DNA from: Desulfoscipio gibsoniae DSM 7213 | Lineage (GTDB): Bacteria > Bacillota > Desulfotomaculia > Desulfotomaculales > Desulfallaceae | NCBI RefSeq assembly: GCF_000233715.2 | Contig: NC_021184.1 | Location: 2,442,001-2,506,000 of the forward strand | DNA: 64,000 nucleotides | Direction: 5' to 3' | In this document: positions 17,638 to 53,801 of the stretch, in pieces | Layout of the letters: the number at the start of each line of letters is the position of its first letter | How positions within the stretch are numbered: position 1 is the first letter of the stretch | Notes under the pieces: generated by a model | What the model saw: only the letters and a program-made list of their open reading frames with translations | Told to the model about the DNA's origin: nothing | Database searches by the model: none | Program-made: the position numbers and the translations under genes

Positions 17638-18018
17638 CTAAATTGCTGCTTCGCCCCGGTCGCCGGTTCTTACCCTTACGGCATCCCCAACGGGGCAAAT
17701 GAATATTTTGCCGTCGCCCTTATTGCCTTCTTTATTAACACTGATGATGGTATTTACCACTTTATCTATCTCGCTGTCCTGGACCAGGATGGTTAACATG
17801 CGCTTGGGAATCAGCCGGCTGCCCTTGGCCAGGCTGTCGGTAACAATGCCGGCTATTTCCTCGGTGGCACCTATATTGTCCAGCACGGTGAGATCTATGT
17901 GGATTTTGCCCCGGCCCATTACTTTAATAGCGTGCAGGCCGCAAACCCCTATATCAGCCAGAGCTTTCTTGGTGGGGTTAACCTTATTCATCCGGATTAT
18001 GGCGATAATCTCTTTCAT
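17638..18018 (-). CDS. nifI2: NifI2, PII-family nitrogenase switch-off protein
   Basis: A 126-residue PII-like protein (MKEIIAIIRMNKVNPTKKAL at the start, KGDGKIFICPVGDAVRVRTG near the end). With NifI1 it forms the complex known from methanogens that binds dinitrogenase in ammonium excess and is released by 2-oxoglutarate. The T-loop is longer than in NifI1 and contains GATEEIAGIVTDSLAKGSRLIP. It lies between nifI1 and nifD, the conserved position for this regulator. Confidence 0.93.
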   Translation of the reverse strand: MKEIIAIIRMNKVNPTKKALADIGVCGLHAIKVMGRGKIHIDLTVLDNIGATEEIAGIVTDSLAKGSRLIPKRMLTILVQDSEIDKVVNTIISVNKEGNKGDGKIFICPVGDAVRVRTGDRGEAAI

Positions 18019-18043
18019 GCCGACCCTCCTTGACTGTGTATTA

Positions 18044-18373
18044 TTAAAGGCCTTTGGTGCCGCTGCTGATGGTATACGCTTCCTCCACCGGAGTCACAAA
18101 AATTTTGCCGTCGCCGAAGGCACCCTTTTCACCGGTCTTGGCGTATTTGGAAATGATGCTGATGACATCTTCTTTGTCCTTTTCATCCTGTACAACCAGC
18201 ATGAGCATATCTTTGGGTATTTCATCGTAAACAACTTCACCCACCTTGACACCGCGCTGTTTGCCGCGGCCCACCACATCAATCCGGGTTACTGCGGGAA
18301 AACCGGCACTGTTTAATTCGGCCAGTATGGAGTTGGTCTTTTCGGGACGCACAATGGCCCTGATCATTAACAC
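18044..18373 (-). CDS. nifI1: NifI1, PII-family nitrogenase switch-off protein
   Basis: A 109-residue PII-like protein with the B-loop GDGKIFVTPVEEAY. The T-loop region RGKQRGVKVGEVVYDEIPK lacks the standard uridylylated tyrosine context of GlnB. It partners NifI2 in blocking NifH-NifDK docking when nitrogen is plentiful. GTG 18373 (after GGAGTGAT) and ATG 18367 are both possible starts. It is separated from nifI2 by 25 bases. Confidence 0.93.
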   Translation of the reverse strand: MLMIRAIVRPEKTNSILAELNSAGFPAVTRIDVVGRGKQRGVKVGEVVYDEIPKDMLMLVVQDEKDKEDVISIISKYAKTGEKGAFGDGKIFVTPVEEAYTISSGTKGL

Positions 18374-18433
18374 TTAATCATCACTCCTATTATAAGTATT
18401 ATTGTGTTTTCGCTATTGGGGCCGGAATCTCGT

Positions 18434-19270
<837 letters not shown>

Positions 19271-19284
19271 CTATATGTGATAAT

Positions 19285-19381
19285 AAAAAAGAGACACCTA
19301 CAGTCCCAAAAGACTGTAAATGCCTCAATGCATGTTTTACTTCCGTGTAAGGATAAAGGTTTACCGCGGATGTAACCGCAG
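19285..19381 (-). promoter_or_regulatory. nifH leader module 3: hexaloop hairpins plus strong terminator
   Basis: In transcript sense: CTGCGG[TTACAT]CCGCGG (19364-19381), TTAC[ACGGAA]GTAA (19337-19350), ATGC[ATTGAG]GCAT (19320-19333). Then comes a 15-bp stem, 19312-19326 with 19291-19305, followed by six U (19285-19290). The second and third hairpins have six-base loops with A at position 1 and G at position 4. The third overlaps the terminator's 5' arm (bases 19320-19326), so the two cannot form together. This is the layout expected of an ANTAR-protein antiterminator. It ends just before the nifH ribosome binding site. Confidence 0.7.
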
Positions 19382-19393
19382 TGTTAAAATTGA

Positions 19394-19452
19394 GGCGCCG
19401 GTAATGAATACCGGCGCCATCGCCTGTTCCCTTTTGATACTGCAATGTATCA
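19394..19452 (-). promoter_or_regulatory. nifH leader module 2: hexaloop hairpin plus terminator
   Basis: In transcript sense: TGATAC[ATTGCA]GTATCA (19435-19452; loop has A1 and G4), an 11-base linker, GGC[GATGGC]GCC (19413-19424; it may instead close as GGCG with CGCC), then a 10-bp GC-rich stem, 19409-19418 with 19394-19403, and a U-rich tail. The second hairpin again overlaps the terminator 5' arm. Its loop departs from the A1 pattern. Confidence 0.65.
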
Positions 19453-19482
19453 GTTATTAGTTTTTTAATTTTAAGCTAAAAT

Positions 19483-19560
19483 TATTGATAAAATAAATAT
19501 TAAACGCCGGCAATTAATTGCCGGCGTCTTTGCCATGTATATTTAGTACTTCAACGTACC
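19483..19560 (-). promoter_or_regulatory. nifH leader module 1: hexaloop hairpins plus terminator
   Basis: In transcript sense: GGTAC[GTTGAA]GTACT (19545-19560), an 11-base linker, GGC[AAAGAC]GCC (19523-19534), then a perfect stem ACGCCGGCAA with TTGCCGGCGT (19504-19527) and U-rich sequence. The AAAGAC loop has A1 and G4; the first loop has G1 and G4. The second hairpin shares GCC with the terminator. GGCAAAGACGCC recurs exactly in the nadE leader and with one change in the nifV leader. Confidence 0.7.
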
Positions 19561-19573
19561 GTTTACATTGATG

Positions 19574-19602
19574 ATTATAGCATTATTTTATATCAATTGC
19601 AA
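19574..19602 (-). promoter_or_regulatory. Sigma-A-type promoter of nifH
   Basis: In transcript sense: -35 TTGCAA (19597-19602), a 17-base spacer, and -10 TATAAT (19574-19579). The start point falls about 14 bases before the first leader hairpin. No NifA/sigma-54 type -24/-12 element is seen, so control is probably at the RNA leader. Confidence 0.75.
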
Positions 19603-19766
19603 GGGTATTTTTAATAAAAATATTTGCTAATATTTTTTATTAAAAATTAAGTTATCTAATAATTTAATTAGTACGTACTTTGTAATGTATTAATGACATA
19701 AATACCAAAGCGATGCTATGCTAACATTACTTTTGCGTTGTTCAATATACCCTGACTGTCAGGTGC
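19603..19766. other. AT-rich spacer between short nifV and nifH promoter
   Basis: Very AT-rich sequence with no open frame. It separates the nifV stop from the nifH promoter. I see no clear terminator hairpin for nifV, so read-through into the nifH leader is possible. Confidence 0.45.
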
Positions 19767-20690
19767 TCACCAGGCCTGCCCGTGTAAGCAAAAGACGGTC
19801 CTCTTGCTTCCGTGCTTTAGCTTATGGCAGTAAAGTTGCCGGTTAAAGGATTGGGCCGGTCTCTTGGCCGCCCGGGCTACAAAATTACCGAGCTTTTCCA
19901 GGATATCCGTTTTAATGGTACCCTCTTTGGAGCTGACACAGTTTTTAAATAACTTTACCATATCTTCTAGACAGGTATTCCCGGCCCGTTCTCCTATGCC
20001 ACCAACGGTTGTGTTAATGTAGTCGGCCCCGGCGGTAAACGCGGCCAAGCTGTTGGCTGTGGCTAGGCCGAAATCGTTATGCCCGTGGAACTCTACCGGG
20101 ATCGCCAGCTTTTCCACCATTAGACCTATAACTCTGCGGGTACCAAACGGTTCCATAACACCAACGGTATCGGCAAAACGCAGTCTTTCCGCGCCTGCCT
20201 CCTGAGCCAGTAGAGCGTATTCCAGTAAAAAACCGAAGTCTGCCCTGGAGGCGTCTTCGGCGCCTACAGATACCCGGCAGCCATAATCTTTGGCATAGCG
20301 TATAGCCCTGACTAAGCAGTCCATGACCCACTGCCTGTTTTTGCTAAGTTTATCCTTAATGTGCAGTTCTGATACCGGGGCACAAATATGAACATTACGG
20401 GCACCACAGGCTATAGATGCTCTAAGGTCAGCCAGCAATAGCCTGTTCCAAACAAATACCTGTGCTTTCAAATTTAAATTGCAAATTGCCTTTATCGCAG
20501 TCTGCTCAATTTTACCCATAGCAGGAATCCCGGCTTCAATAACCTCGACCCCAAGCGAATCCAACAGTCTTGCAATTATCACTTTTTCTTGTAGGGAAAA
20601 GGCCACCCCTGGTGCCTGTTCACCATCCCTTAGAGTTGTATCCACGAGAGCTGGTGAAAATCTGTATTTTTGTTTTAAATGCAATTGCAT
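19767..20690 (-). CDS. nifV: Short NifV-like homocitrate synthase (catalytic domain only)
   Basis: About 307 residues covering the TIM-barrel of the homocitrate/isopropylmalate synthase family: LVDTTLRDGEQAPG at the start, VSVGAEDASR, RFADTVGVMEPF, EFHGHNDFGLATANS and GGIGERAGNTCLEDMV. It stops after about 300 residues, before the FAHESGIH region that full NifV proteins have. Homocitrate is the organic part of FeMo-co. A split NifV (nifV-alpha and nifV-omega) is known in Clostridium pasteurianum; a full-length NifV gene lies at 52644-53801 here. ATG 20690 follows AGAGGTGAG; GTG 20699 overlaps that site. Confidence 0.85.
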   Translation of the reverse strand: MQLHLKQKYRFSPALVDTTLRDGEQAPGVAFSLQEKVIIARLLDSLGVEVIEAGIPAMGKIEQTAIKAICNLNLKAQVFVWNRLLLADLRASIACGARNVHICAPVSELHIKDKLSKNRQWVMDCLVRAIRYAKDYGCRVSVGAEDASRADFGFLLEYALLAQEAGAERLRFADTVGVMEPFGTRRVIGLMVEKLAIPVEFHGHNDFGLATANSLAAFTAGADYINTTVGGIGERAGNTCLEDMVKLFKNCVSSKEGTIKTDILEKLGNFVARAAKRPAQSFNRQLYCHKLKHGSKRTVFCLHGQAW

Positions 20691-20708
20691 ATAACTCACC
20701 TCTGTTAA

Positions 20709-20782
20709 AGATAAAATAAAACCCCCGTATAGAGGTTTATTCCACTATACGGGGGCATCTTTGCCTTTGATACAACATTGTA
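20709..20782 (-). promoter_or_regulatory. nifV leader: hexaloop hairpins plus terminator
   Basis: In transcript sense: TAC[AATGTT]GTA (20771-20782), a five-base linker, GGC[AAAGAT]GCC (20754-20765), then an 11-bp stem CCCCCGTATAG with its complement (20722-20755) and TTTTATTTTATC. Both loops have A at position 1 and G at position 4. The second hairpin shares two C bases with the terminator. The first stem is only three base pairs, so its stability alone is weak. Confidence 0.7.
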
Positions 20783-20807
20783 GAATAGTATTTGCAATTA
20801 ATATTGA

Positions 20808-20836
20808 ATTATAAAGCTAAGCCTGTAAAAAAGCAA
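20808..20836 (-). promoter_or_regulatory. Sigma-A-type promoter of nifV
   Basis: In transcript sense: TTGCTT (20831-20836), 17-base spacer, TATAAT (20808-20813). It would start transcription a short distance before the leader hairpins. Confidence 0.6.
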
Positions 20837-20961
20837 GAAGTAAAATACTGCAGCAAAAATTATTTGTTGGACCACTGTCCGAAGACATTTCCATTTCCAC
20901 TACGCTCACAACTTTTGTAGTTTATCTTATTTGTTGGAATCATTTTTTTGCAAAATAAATA
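20837..20961. other. Spacer between divergent nifV and nadE promoters
   Basis: About 125 bp separate two divergent promoters whose transcripts carry near-identical leader elements. I see no clear operator palindrome here. Confidence 0.4.
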
Positions 20962-20990
20962 TTCGCAACCAGCCTAACATGGTATATAAT
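20962..20990 (+). promoter_or_regulatory. Sigma-A-type promoter of nadE
   Basis: -35 TTCGCA (20962-20967), 17-base spacer, -10 TATAAT (20985-20990). The -35 matches the consensus at four of six positions. Confidence 0.6.
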
Positions 20991-21010
20991 CTTATACAAA
21001 GAAACAGCTC

Positions 21011-21087
21011 AGGTCATTAAAGATCTAAAACGTGGCAAAGACGCCCAGCGTTCCCCTTTGGGGAAATGCTGGGCGTCTTTATTTTAT
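21011..21087 (+). promoter_or_regulatory. nadE leader: hexaloop hairpins plus terminator
   Basis: AGGTC[ATTAAA]GATCT (21011-21026), a short linker, GGC[AAAGAC]GCC (21034-21045), then a long GC-rich stem (21037-21080) followed by TTTATTTTAT. The second loop has A1 and G4 and is identical to that of nifH module 1; the first has A1 but A at position 4. Hairpin 2 lies within the terminator's 5' arm, so terminator and hairpin exclude each other. It ends about 50 bases before the nadE start. Confidence 0.7.
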
Positions 21088-26173: not shown

Positions 26174-26290
26174 GCTCTTATCCGGAGTGGTGGAGGGACT
26201 GGCCCTATGAAGCCCGGCAACCAGCTTTTGTTTTTCCTGAAAGTATGGTGCTAATTCCTGCAGAAGCAAAGCTTCTGGCAGATAAGAGGT
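26174..26290 (+). promoter_or_regulatory. SAM-I (S-box) riboswitch
   Basis: P1 is formed by GCTCTTATC (26174-26182) with GATAAGAG (26281-26288). Conserved aptamer blocks are present: GGTGGAGGGACTGGCCC, TGAAGCCCGGCAACC and GGTGCTAATTCC. SAM binding should favour the downstream terminator and shut off the homocysteine genes. Confidence 0.95.
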
Positions 26291-26378: not shown

Positions 26379-27575
26379 ATGGCAGTGGAAAAAACTTTCC
26401 AGGAGATTAATGAACGAATTAAAAAAGGCCAGGCCGTAGTGGTAACCGCTGAGGAACTGGTCAATATGGTTAAAGAAAAAGGAGTAACACGTGTCACATC
26501 TGAAGTGGATGTGGTAACGACAGGAACATTCGGTCCCATGTGCTCTTCCGGCGCTTTTTTAAGCTTGGGTCATTCCAAGCCACGTATTAAAATGAATAAA
26601 GTTTGGCTGAACGATGTACCTGCCTATAGTGGCATCGCCGCTGTTGACGCCTTTATCGGGGCCACTGAGGTGCCCGAAGATGATCCTTTAAACAGCGTTC
26701 ACCCGGGTGAGTTCCGGTATGGCGGCGGACATGTCATCCAGGACCTGGTAGCCCGCAAAAAGGTGCTGCTTAAAGCCACCGGCTATGGCACGGACTGTTA
26801 TCCCCGCAGGGAAATAGAAACTGAAATTACTATTGACGATATTAATGAAGCCATACTTTTCAACCCGCGTAATGCTTACCAGAACTATAACTGCGCCGTC
26901 AACTTGAGCACCCGGACCATCTATACCTACCTTGGCATGCTCAAAGCCAACCTGGCCAACGCGCACTACTCTACGTCGGGACAGCTCAGCCCACTGCTAA
27001 AAGACCCTATGTTTAAAACTATCGGGGTGGGCACGCGCATTTTCTTAGGCGGCGGCATTGGTTACGTGGTTTGGAACGGTACTCAGCACTTCCCGGGAGT
27101 TAATCAGGATGATAACGGCCAAAGCTATGGCCATGCCGGTGCCACTCTGTCAGTACTGGGTGACTTAAAACAAATGAGCCCGCGCTGGCTGGTGGGTACC
27201 AGCATGCTCGGTTACGGAGCTACCTTAACGGTGGGAATTGGCATACCCATACCGCTGCTTAATGAGGAAATCTGCCGTTATGCGGCGGCCGGGGACGATG
27301 AATTATACGCCCCCATCATGGATTACAGCGATGCGTTCCCCAACCTCAACTCATCCAACCTGGGCTATGTCAGTTACGCCGAGCTAAAAAGCGGCAAAAT
27401 AACTGTCAACGGCAAAGAAGTACCCACAGCGCCGGTTTCCAGCTACCCGCGGGCTCGGGAAATAGCTGGTACGTTAAAGCAGTGGATTCAAAAAGGCGAC
27501 TTTTTGCTTGGTGAACCGGTACAGCTATTACCGAATGCGGACGCGGGAATCAAGGTCAACACCTTGAAGGGTTAA
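26379..27575 (+). CDS. Homocysteine biosynthesis protein (HcyBio, DUF39)
   Basis: A 398-residue DUF39 protein. This family, with the ferredoxin encoded next to it, is known from Methanosarcina and sulfate reducers to make homocysteine directly from aspartate semialdehyde with reduced sulfur, without O-acylhomoserine. Visible blocks include TGTFGPMCSSGAFLS, GVGTRIFLGGGIGYV and LVGTSMLGYGATL; the cysteine in PMCSSGA is a plausible sulfur carrier. The ATG follows GTGGAGGTG. It is first in a three-gene operon behind the SAM riboswitch, which supports a methionine/SAM role. Confidence 0.92.
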   Translation: MAVEKTFQEINERIKKGQAVVVTAEELVNMVKEKGVTRVTSEVDVVTTGTFGPMCSSGAFLSLGHSKPRIKMNKVWLNDVPAYSGIAAVDAFIGATEVPEDDPLNSVHPGEFRYGGGHVIQDLVARKKVLLKATGYGTDCYPRREIETEITIDDINEAILFNPRNAYQNYNCAVNLSTRTIYTYLGMLKANLANAHYSTSGQLSPLLKDPMFKTIGVGTRIFLGGGIGYVVWNGTQHFPGVNQDDNGQSYGHAGATLSVLGDLKQMSPRWLVGTSMLGYGATLTVGIGIPIPLLNEEICRYAAAGDDELYAPIMDYSDAFPNLNSSNLGYVSYAELKSGKITVNGKEVPTAPVSSYPRAREIAGTLKQWIQKGDFLLGEPVQLLPNADAGIKVNTLKG

Positions 27576-52643: not shown

Positions 52644-53801
52644 CTAGTCTCTTATAATGCCCCCGAAATAATCTTCATAAATGTAAACCAACTCTTTGTC
52701 AAACAAGGGACGCTTCAATGAAACCGTATAGGAGCGAATTTTGGGTAATAATTCTTCGGCCTGGTGTTCCGATAAGCGAATACCATATTCAGCATATTTA
52801 GCTTTAAGAGCCGCGGTGCCCGAGTGTTTACCAACCACAATCTGCCTTTCCAGACCCACTTCCTCAGGCTGGAACGGTTCATAGGTTTTCGGGTTTTTCA
52901 GTGCCCCGTCAGCATGGATACCTGATTCGTGAGCAAACATGTTGGATCCAACGATGGCCTTCCAAGCCGGTAATTCTCTACCCGAGGCACGGGATACATA
53001 TTCCGCCACTTCGCGAAACATTTCTGTTTTAAAACCAAGATCAAGTTTATGCAAATGTTTTAAAGCCATAACCACTTCTTCCAATGCCGAGTTACCAGCC
53101 CGTTCACCCAGGCCCATTACGGTCACGCCAATCCACCTGGCACCAGCCATTACACCGGCCAGAGCATTGGCAGTGGCCATGCCAAAATCATTATGGGTAT
53201 GCATTTCAATGTCAATATCTACATTCTCCAGTATATACTTGATATTGTTATATGTGGTAAACGGCTCTAATATGCCCACTGTATCACAATAGCGCAGCCG
53301 GTCGGCACCGGCTTCCCTGGCGGCCTTCGCATATTGGACCAAAAATTCCAAATCACTGCGGGAAGCATCCTCGGCGTTAACGGAAATGTACATGCCTTCC
53401 TTTTTAGCAAATTCTACCGCTGCAACCATATGTTCCAGTACCCATTCCCGGCTGGTTCTGAGCTTGTGTTTAATATGAATATCGGAAGTGGATATAGAAA
53501 TAGCTACTGCGTCTACTCCGCATTCGATGGAGGCTTCAAGATCCTTAATTACCGGGCGATTCCAACCCATAATACTGGCTTTGAGTCCCGACCGGCATAT
53601 TTGGGTTATGGCTTTCTTTTCATCGCCGCCCATGACGGCAACACCTGCTTCGATTTGGTGCACACCCATCTCATCCAAAAACTTGGCAATTCTCACTTTT
53701 TCCCTATTAGCAAATACTACACCGGCGGTTTGTTCACCGTCCCGTAAAGTGGTGTCAATAATCTTAATGTCTTCAGCTGTTAGTTTTGGTCTTTCAATCA
53801 T
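52644..53801 (-). CDS. nifV: Homocitrate synthase, full length
   Basis: A 385-residue NifV-family enzyme joining acetyl-CoA and 2-oxoglutarate to homocitrate. The TIM barrel has KIIDTTLRDGEQTAG, NAEDASRSDLEF, RYCDTVGILEPF, EMHTHNDFGMATANA and GLGERAGNSALEE; the C-terminal part has SNMFAHESGIHADGAL. It is about 32 kb from the nif cluster and monocistronic, with an ordinary AT-rich upstream region and no hexaloop leader. An alternative is lysine or isopropylmalate-like synthesis, but the NifV signature is stronger. The ATG follows GGAAGGAAG. Confidence 0.87.
   Translation of the reverse strand: MIERPKLTAEDIKIIDTTLRDGEQTAGVVFANREKVRIAKFLDEMGVHQIEAGVAVMGGDEKKAITQICRSGLKASIMGWNRPVIKDLEASIECGVDAVAISISTSDIHIKHKLRTSREWVLEHMVAAVEFAKKEGMYISVNAEDASRSDLEFLVQYAKAAREAGADRLRYCDTVGILEPFTTYNNIKYILENVDIDIEMHTHNDFGMATANALAGVMAGARWIGVTVMGLGERAGNSALEEVVMALKHLHKLDLGFKTEMFREVAEYVSRASGRELPAWKAIVGSNMFAHESGIHADGALKNPKTYEPFQPEEVGLERQIVVGKHSGTAALKAKYAEYGIRLSEHQAEELLPKIRSYTVSLKRPLFDKELVYIYEDYFGGIIRD

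Follow-up and report, generated by a model that had tools for sequence, protein, structure and literature searches.

Control of nitrogenase genes by ANTAR proteins has already been proposed (PMC3369931). The text of that study covered here predicts ANTAR regulons that take in nitrogenase and other nitrogen genes in Pelobacter carbinolicus and Desulfotomaculum acetoxidans, and lists for the latter at least 13 predicted ANTAR sites in six units, so that some units hold more than one site. It also reports that an A-to-U change at position 1 of the loop impairs the function of EutV; a change from A to G does not figure in that text. In the part covered of a crystal structure report, no specific contact to loop A1 is described, and a role in folding is suggested (PMC8934654). 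The genome paper of Desulfoscipio gibsoniae reports a nitrogenase cluster and states that N2 fixation had not been analysed (PMC4148979).

This analysis addresses the leader of nifH in D. gibsoniae DSM 7213. The genome is a single contig of 4,855,529 bases, and the window, the whole stretch of 64,000 nucleotides that was analysed, corresponds to 2442001-2506000; positions below are counted within it. From its sequence, the nifH leader probably holds three transcription attenuators in a row, all responsive to an ANTAR protein. We will discuss the anatomy of the stack, its conservation in relatives, the regulator that would act upon it, and its relation to the systems already described.

The nif operon, its promoter and the three modules

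The nif genes are on the minus strand, where a nifV-like gene is followed by the nifH leader, nifH, two PII-like frames, nifD, more nitrogenase-type frames and nifB. The NCBIfam matches of nifH, nifD and nifB are all over cut-off. The nifH gene (18434-19258, ATG at 19258, TIGR01287) is the first gene of the operon expected under control. The two frames after it are read as PII-like, the first having no NCBIfam match at 1e-20, and the further frames between nifD and nifB are named by position and reading alone. Upstream of the leader, the nifV-like gene (20699-19767) has nifV as its best NCBIfam match, below the cut-off of that model. It is short, with 310 amino acids covering 3-268 of the 365 positions of the model; a longer homocitrate-synthase-like open reading frame, recognised by reading, is found at 52644-53801 (minus strand).

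The predicted nifH promoter (19574-19602, minus strand) is of sigma-A type, TTGCAA-17-TATAAT with a TG before the -10, and matches at 10 of 12 positions, in a region where promoter-like sites are not rarer than chance (9 against 6.1 expected in 18000-21000). It looks like a housekeeping promoter, and its TATAA is unchanged in 8/8 family leaders. Transcription would start near 19567, as placed from the predicted promoter. With the -10 hexamer at 19579-19574 and the ATG at 19258, the distance of about 315 nucleotides given by an earlier note on this DNA is confirmed. A candidate internal promoter in module 3 (9 of 12 matches, 19309-19280) was rejected, its -35 not being kept in the family alignment A3, as judged by eye.

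The earlier note also suggested a nif switch that works without NifA or sigma-54. The opposite view is that NifA with sigma-54, or another DNA-binding activator, controls nif while the hairpins are incidental; sigma-54 is indeed encoded in the genome, and 31 proteins score at least 292 bits with the NifA model. However, none reaches the NifA cut-off of 529 bits (the best protein scores 391), and on the strand of nifH no -24/-12 element, with up to two mismatches allowed, occurs upstream of the gene as far as 24682, the window as a whole holding 38 against 39 expected. The conserved TATAA stands at the nifH promoter instead. Control by such an activator is thus very unlikely, and the suggestion is supported.

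Between promoter and gene, the leader carries three modules on the minus strand, each with two hexaloop hairpins (P1 and P2), of which P2 overlaps a terminator-like hairpin of the same module. In module 1, P1 is GGTAC[GTTGAA]GTACT (19545-19560, loop in brackets, G1/G4) and P2 is TGGC[AAAGAC]GCCG (19522-19535); the latter overlaps hairpin 1 (19502-19529, -19.4 kcal/mol), the tail of which is interrupted by an A and has a U score of 1.69. In module 2, P1 is TGATAC[ATTGCA]GTATCA (19435-19452), which shows covariation, and P2 is GGC[GATGGC]GCC (19413-19424, alignment A4), in which the loop G1 could pair with C6; folded alone, this P2 becomes a 4-pair stem with a tetraloop. The hairpin of module 2 (19394-19418, -20.5 kcal/mol) combines a strong stem with a U-poor tail (TCAATTTT; U score 1.36). 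In module 3, P1 is TTAC[ACGGAA]GTAA (19337-19350, A1/G4), weak alone at -0.1 kcal/mol, and P2 is ATGC[ATTGAG]GCAT (19320-19333, A1/G4), with covariation of one pair. The terminator of module 3 (19285-19326, hairpin 19326-19291) is canonical, with 16 pairs, a T6 tail, -22.1 kcal/mol and a U score of 4.41. Measured between the inner three pairs of the stems, the P1-P2 linkers of modules 1, 2 and 3 are 12, 13 and 5 nucleotides.

Folded alone, the P1 and P2 hairpins reach -0.1 to -4.8 kcal/mol, against -19.4, -20.5 and -22.1 for the terminator hairpins. The terminator hairpins are far stabler, so the open form would need something to hold it. An extra small hairpin, GCGG...CCGC, lies between modules 2 and 3 (19380-19364, minus strand), and by eye several relatives seem to carry other small hairpins there.

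Much of what the earlier note had read in the leader is borne out by this anatomy. It assigned an overlapping hairpin pair to each terminator, and in three of three cases the P2 of the module's own hexaloop pair overlaps the hairpin. It described two A1/G4 loops and a run of six U in module 3, as found here (ACGGAA, ATTGAG, T6); the module 3 stem, put at 15 bp, is scored here as 16 pairs. Its three terminators in series stand as three terminator-like hairpins, but a strong U-tract is present at module 3 only.

A leader that is structured and holds terminator-like hairpins could be under the control of a known RNA family such as a riboswitch. Rfam at gathering threshold, however, finds in the whole window a SAM riboswitch only (26175-26288, plus strand, over gathering score, upstream of an open reading frame at 26379), and a permissive scan of 19240-19640 returns eight matches, each below half its gathering score. 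Such an origin is the most improbable of the explanations considered.

Chance controls and conservation in relatives

Terminator-like sites alone are not enriched in 18000-21000, with 4 against 3.4 expected in shuffles. Full modules number three in the real 330-nt leader and zero in 1000 dinucleotide shuffles of it, and 1200 shuffles of 30 nifH leaders likewise gave zero. With a relaxed scanner, one module appeared in 1500 shuffles of the 30 leaders. Since shuffling destroys terminators, the window left unshuffled gives the stricter test; on both of its strands the relaxed scanner found four modules, the three of nifH and one in the nifV-like leader. A module before a nadE-like gene, described below, is missed because this scanner needs G4 in both loops. 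A chance origin of the stack was rejected on the shuffle counts and the unshuffled-window scan. Through anatomy and shuffle specificity, the stacked antiterminator/terminator modules proposed earlier are supported as being of ANTAR type. A 12-base P2 pattern has five exact matches in the genome, three of them inside the window; of the other two, one precedes a response-regulator gene where no P1 was recognised, and one lies, by reading, inside a tRNA-synthetase-like gene. Matches with one mismatch include two before the second glnA.

Conservation was followed in 113 genomes of the order, 30 of them with a NifH match at E <= 1e-130. In these 30 nifH leaders, the relaxed scanner detected one or more modules in 26, two or more in 16, and three in 2. 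It undercounts, since the family alignment shows, by eye, three modules in six of eight leaders (the leader itself, G001, G006, G007, G008 and G010). In G010 the P2 of module 2 carries a mismatch; by eye, G004 has two modules and is without module 2, and G009 has three, partly eroded. A leader of another family, L041, has three modules by pattern. Among the best 80 named NifH loci of the matches listed, 65 are without a module by the relaxed scanner, and a stricter scan found modules in 14, about ten of which are Desulfotomaculum relatives or unclassified Bacillota/Peptococcaceae, with one Thermincola and one Clostridium. The two scanned leader sets overlap, as some named loci share leaders with genomes of the order. 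A 46% identical NifH-like locus (L040) was excluded from the leaders, and L057, with 136 nucleotides upstream of nifH, was counted as having zero modules.

The pairing of the modules is maintained in these relatives. For module 2 (15 leaders), P1 and P2 are paired in 93.9% of cells, with a covariation score above all 500 shuffles and compensating changes in P1; its hairpin stem is paired in 97.7% of cells, with a covariation score that is equalled or exceeded in 28 of 500 shuffles. Module 3 (13 leaders) is 97.4% paired, its covariation exceeding all shuffles by way of a T-A/G-C exchange in P2. Module 1 (8 leaders) is 97.2% paired, with 11 of 500 shuffles reaching its covariation score, and its terminator has no covariation in the 8 leaders. 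There is hardly any variation in P2 of the first two modules. Alignment A4 includes a G010 row that is too short and misses the 5' arm of P1. A pool of 37 modules was aligned by removing 6 of 40 reference rows for redundancy and adding three window rows and L022, the 40-row reference list having excluded L044, L047, L055 and L059 as near-duplicates or odd. Pairing holds in 98.8% of the cells of this pool, with changes on both sides in 22 cells, most rows having been chosen by a scanner that requires pairing. The pair counts of A8, and partly those of A4-A6, lean towards structure because the scanners and patterns required purine-1, G4 and paired stems. The pairing statistics are therefore supporting, not decisive, evidence for the predicted structure, given that kin sequences can beat such shuffles without structure.

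The same alignments bear on leader-peptide attenuation, in which ribosomes on short frames would choose which hairpin forms. In modules 1 and 2, short frames open with an ATG at P2, and by eye the ATG of module 1 is present in 5/8 rows of alignment A6. That of module 2, however, is present in only 5/15 rows of A4 (by eye), and no run of regulatory codons was noticed in the short frames, which were read informally. We consider this mechanism extremely unlikely here.

One further locus was observed in G003 (L188, G003:C73:8500-15000), a genome with no NifH match at E <= 1e-60. By eye, it retains a shortened nifV-like frame, modules 1 and 2 of the nifH leader and a short remnant of the start of nifD. 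Module 3 and nifH have gone from this place, as has the greater part of the PII-like genes. It looks like a nif operon undergoing loss.

Loop rule, tail strength and the standing of module 2

Position 4 of the loop is G in six of six nifH loops. Position 1 is A in both loops of module 3 and of the nifV-like leader, and is not in P1 of module 1 and P2 of module 2; with one G1 loop each, modules 1 and 2 are called variants. Alignment A3 was collected by NifH alone. Inspected by eye, it has G at position 4 in every placeable loop and A or G at position 1, the eroded P1 hairpins of G009 being set aside. The P1 loop of module 1 begins with G in 6/8 leaders and the P2 loop of module 2 in all seven having it (A3, by eye). 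Alignment A6 also gives 6/8 for the former, and A4 gives 15/15 for the latter under a search pattern that required that G.

Tail strength is uneven. Weighted U-tract scores in this genome are about 1.7 for module 1, about 1.4 for module 2 and 4.41 for module 3, and of the three modules only module 3 thus ends, in D. gibsoniae, in a clearly canonical terminator. In relatives, module 3 scores 4.2 to 4.4 across five family leaders (G007, G008 and G009 were missed by the pattern) and 4.5 in L041; module 2 scores 0.2 to 2.8 across seven family leaders and L041. A value of 0.03 for module 1 of G006 is an artefact of an over-extended hairpin. In family f8, module 3 scores are mixed (1.1 to 3.5).

Given such tails, only module 3, perhaps with module 1, could be a working ANTAR gate, and module 2 a decaying duplicate that no longer terminates. 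The low scores of module 2 in the family favour this, as do its absence from G004 and the P2 mismatch in G010. Against decay, the P1/P2 pairs and hairpin stem of module 2 are kept as described above, with compensating changes; by eye, its stem in G003 differs from that in G001 by one compensating G-C to A-T change, and the tail of the corresponding module is better in family f8, where it scores 2.5 to 4.3 in 7/9 leaders and 1.3 in 2/9. A decaying module 2 is possible, though doubtful. Within the proposed stack, the role of main gate falls most likely to module 3 and that of second gate to module 1, with module 2 weak or factor-dependent.

The ANTAR regulator, its predicted targets and known systems

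The genome has one ANTAR gene (E 1.6e-22), located between gdhA and a type I glnA. Its product consists of a receiver and an ANTAR domain, and aligns over both with EutV (6wsh/6ww6, E 3e-32) and, at E 7e-43, with 1s8n, a putative antiterminator. By eye, it keeps the receiver Asp and the Met, and has an aromatic Phe at the site where the text covered of PMC8934654 names Tyr164, alongside Met172. No histidine kinase was noticed by eye in the 12 kb around the gene. ANTAR domains occur in 99/113 genomes of the order and in 29/30 nifH-positive genomes, so common in the order that their co-occurrence with nifH discriminates little. The exception is G099, a 64% complete genome that holds a module but gives no ANTAR match.

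Other leaders extend the predicted regulon. A single ANTAR module with terminator precedes the nifV-like gene (20719-20784, minus strand; TAC[AATGTT]GTA and GGC[AAAGAT]GCC), and an ANTAR-like module with terminator precedes a divergent nadE-like gene (21011-21080, plus strand; AGGTC[ATTAAA]GATCT and GGC[AAAGAC]GCC), the product of which has NAD synthase and carbon-nitrogen hydrolase domains. In the latter, position 4 of the P1 loop is A, not G (21011-21046, plus strand), and the module would be a weaker site or else an unusual member of the regulon. Modules with A1/G4 in both loops precede the glnA beside the ANTAR gene, a second glnA and the nifV-like gene. The second glnA (L030 1500-1660, plus strand) has two such modules in tandem, so stacking is not limited to nif. 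Imperfect modules precede a PII-family gene (matches below cut-off), with a P2 lacking a clean hexaloop, and the ANTAR gene itself, with a P2 loop of 5 or 7.

Model searches returned the same leaders. Model R1, made from six modules, gave as new genome matches the second glnA and the PII gene, with weak E-values of 0.19 and 0.73 but in fitting context; module 3 was omitted from its matches, though trained on, because 150 of 1296 candidates were scored. With model R2, each of the eight best genome matches precedes a nitrogen-linked gene, at E 3e-6 to 0.14, and E rises to 2.7 at the ninth. The eight comprise one module each in six leaders (both glnA, nifV-like, PII, nadE-like and ANTAR) and modules 1 and 2 of nifH; six were training sequences, and the PII and ANTAR leaders were not. 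Further regulon members may exist, since R2 scored 150 of 3458 candidates. On the window, R2 lists module 3, a training sequence, at E 0.0012.

In the proposed mechanism, transcription would begin at the constitutive housekeeping promoter, and by default each P2 would be taken into its terminator-like hairpin, making RNA polymerase stop early. Nitrogen shortage would be the signal for read-through. The ANTAR protein, presumably phosphorylated by a kinase, would in its active form bind the hexaloop pairs as these emerge and keep P2 outside the hairpin, so that polymerase could continue into the nif operon.

The earlier note suggested a very tight nif switch through serial gates. The stack might act in this way if all three hairpins terminate efficiently and leaks multiply; gates in series would be expected to leak less. 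As an illustration, a toy model in which every gate is given an invented leak of 0.1 yields a range of 10-fold with one gate, 100-fold with two and 1000-fold with three, but an effective Hill number that rises only from 2.0 to 2.4; uneven invented leaks (0.1, 0.5, 0.3) give a 67-fold range. The modules might also form a graded series instead of copies, with module 2 as a site of loading or pausing that arms the ANTAR dimer, module 3 as the decisive step, and a nif threshold for the same regulator above that of single-module genes. The base at loop position 1 follows the module, being mostly G in P1 of module 1, G in all P2 of module 2 seen and mostly A in P1 of module 3, and family tail strength is tied to it as well, weak at module 2 and strong at module 3. 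We regard the graded series as an unlikely, speculative extension.

The leader bears on nitrogenase control in bacteria of this group, D. gibsoniae having no identifiable NifA in its genome. It offers a test system, with one ANTAR protein, a nif operon behind three predicted gates and one- or two-gate genes in the same cell, and it poses the question whether stacked attenuators tighten or time a switch. The published A1 loop rule may be too strict in this group, and searches seeded with A1 may have missed sites. Among the ANTAR and nif papers listed, in part by title and abstract start, none deals with a stacked nifH leader. Within that scope, three details are new: the conserved triple stack, the module-tied G1 loops and the uneven tails.

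Among known systems, GnfK/GnfR of Geobacter reportedly also place nif genes under an ANTAR protein, in another phylum and a sigma-54 context. The nitR antiterminator of Clostridium is tied to ammonia assimilation, and unlike the nifH leader it has no nif link in the text covered (PMC4676874). As in the P. carbinolicus and D. acetoxidans regulons described in the main text of PMC3369931, nif and other nitrogen genes are predicted to be controlled together. The leader resembles the ANTAR dual-hairpin antiterminators of that text (Enterococcus faecalis eut and the targets of AmiR and NasR) in its two hexaloops, closing pairs and G4, and also in the receiver-ANTAR protein and the nitrogen-linked genes (PMC3369931). 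Where P2 overlaps a terminator there, it overlaps a terminator-like hairpin in all three modules here, with a strong U-tract at module 3. The seed alignment there, as its main text describes it, kept A1 in both loops, a rule that modules 1 and 2 break. Unlike those published antiterminators, the nifH leader of D. gibsoniae has three modules, G1 in two loops and a U-poor tail at module 2 (PMC3369931, as covered).
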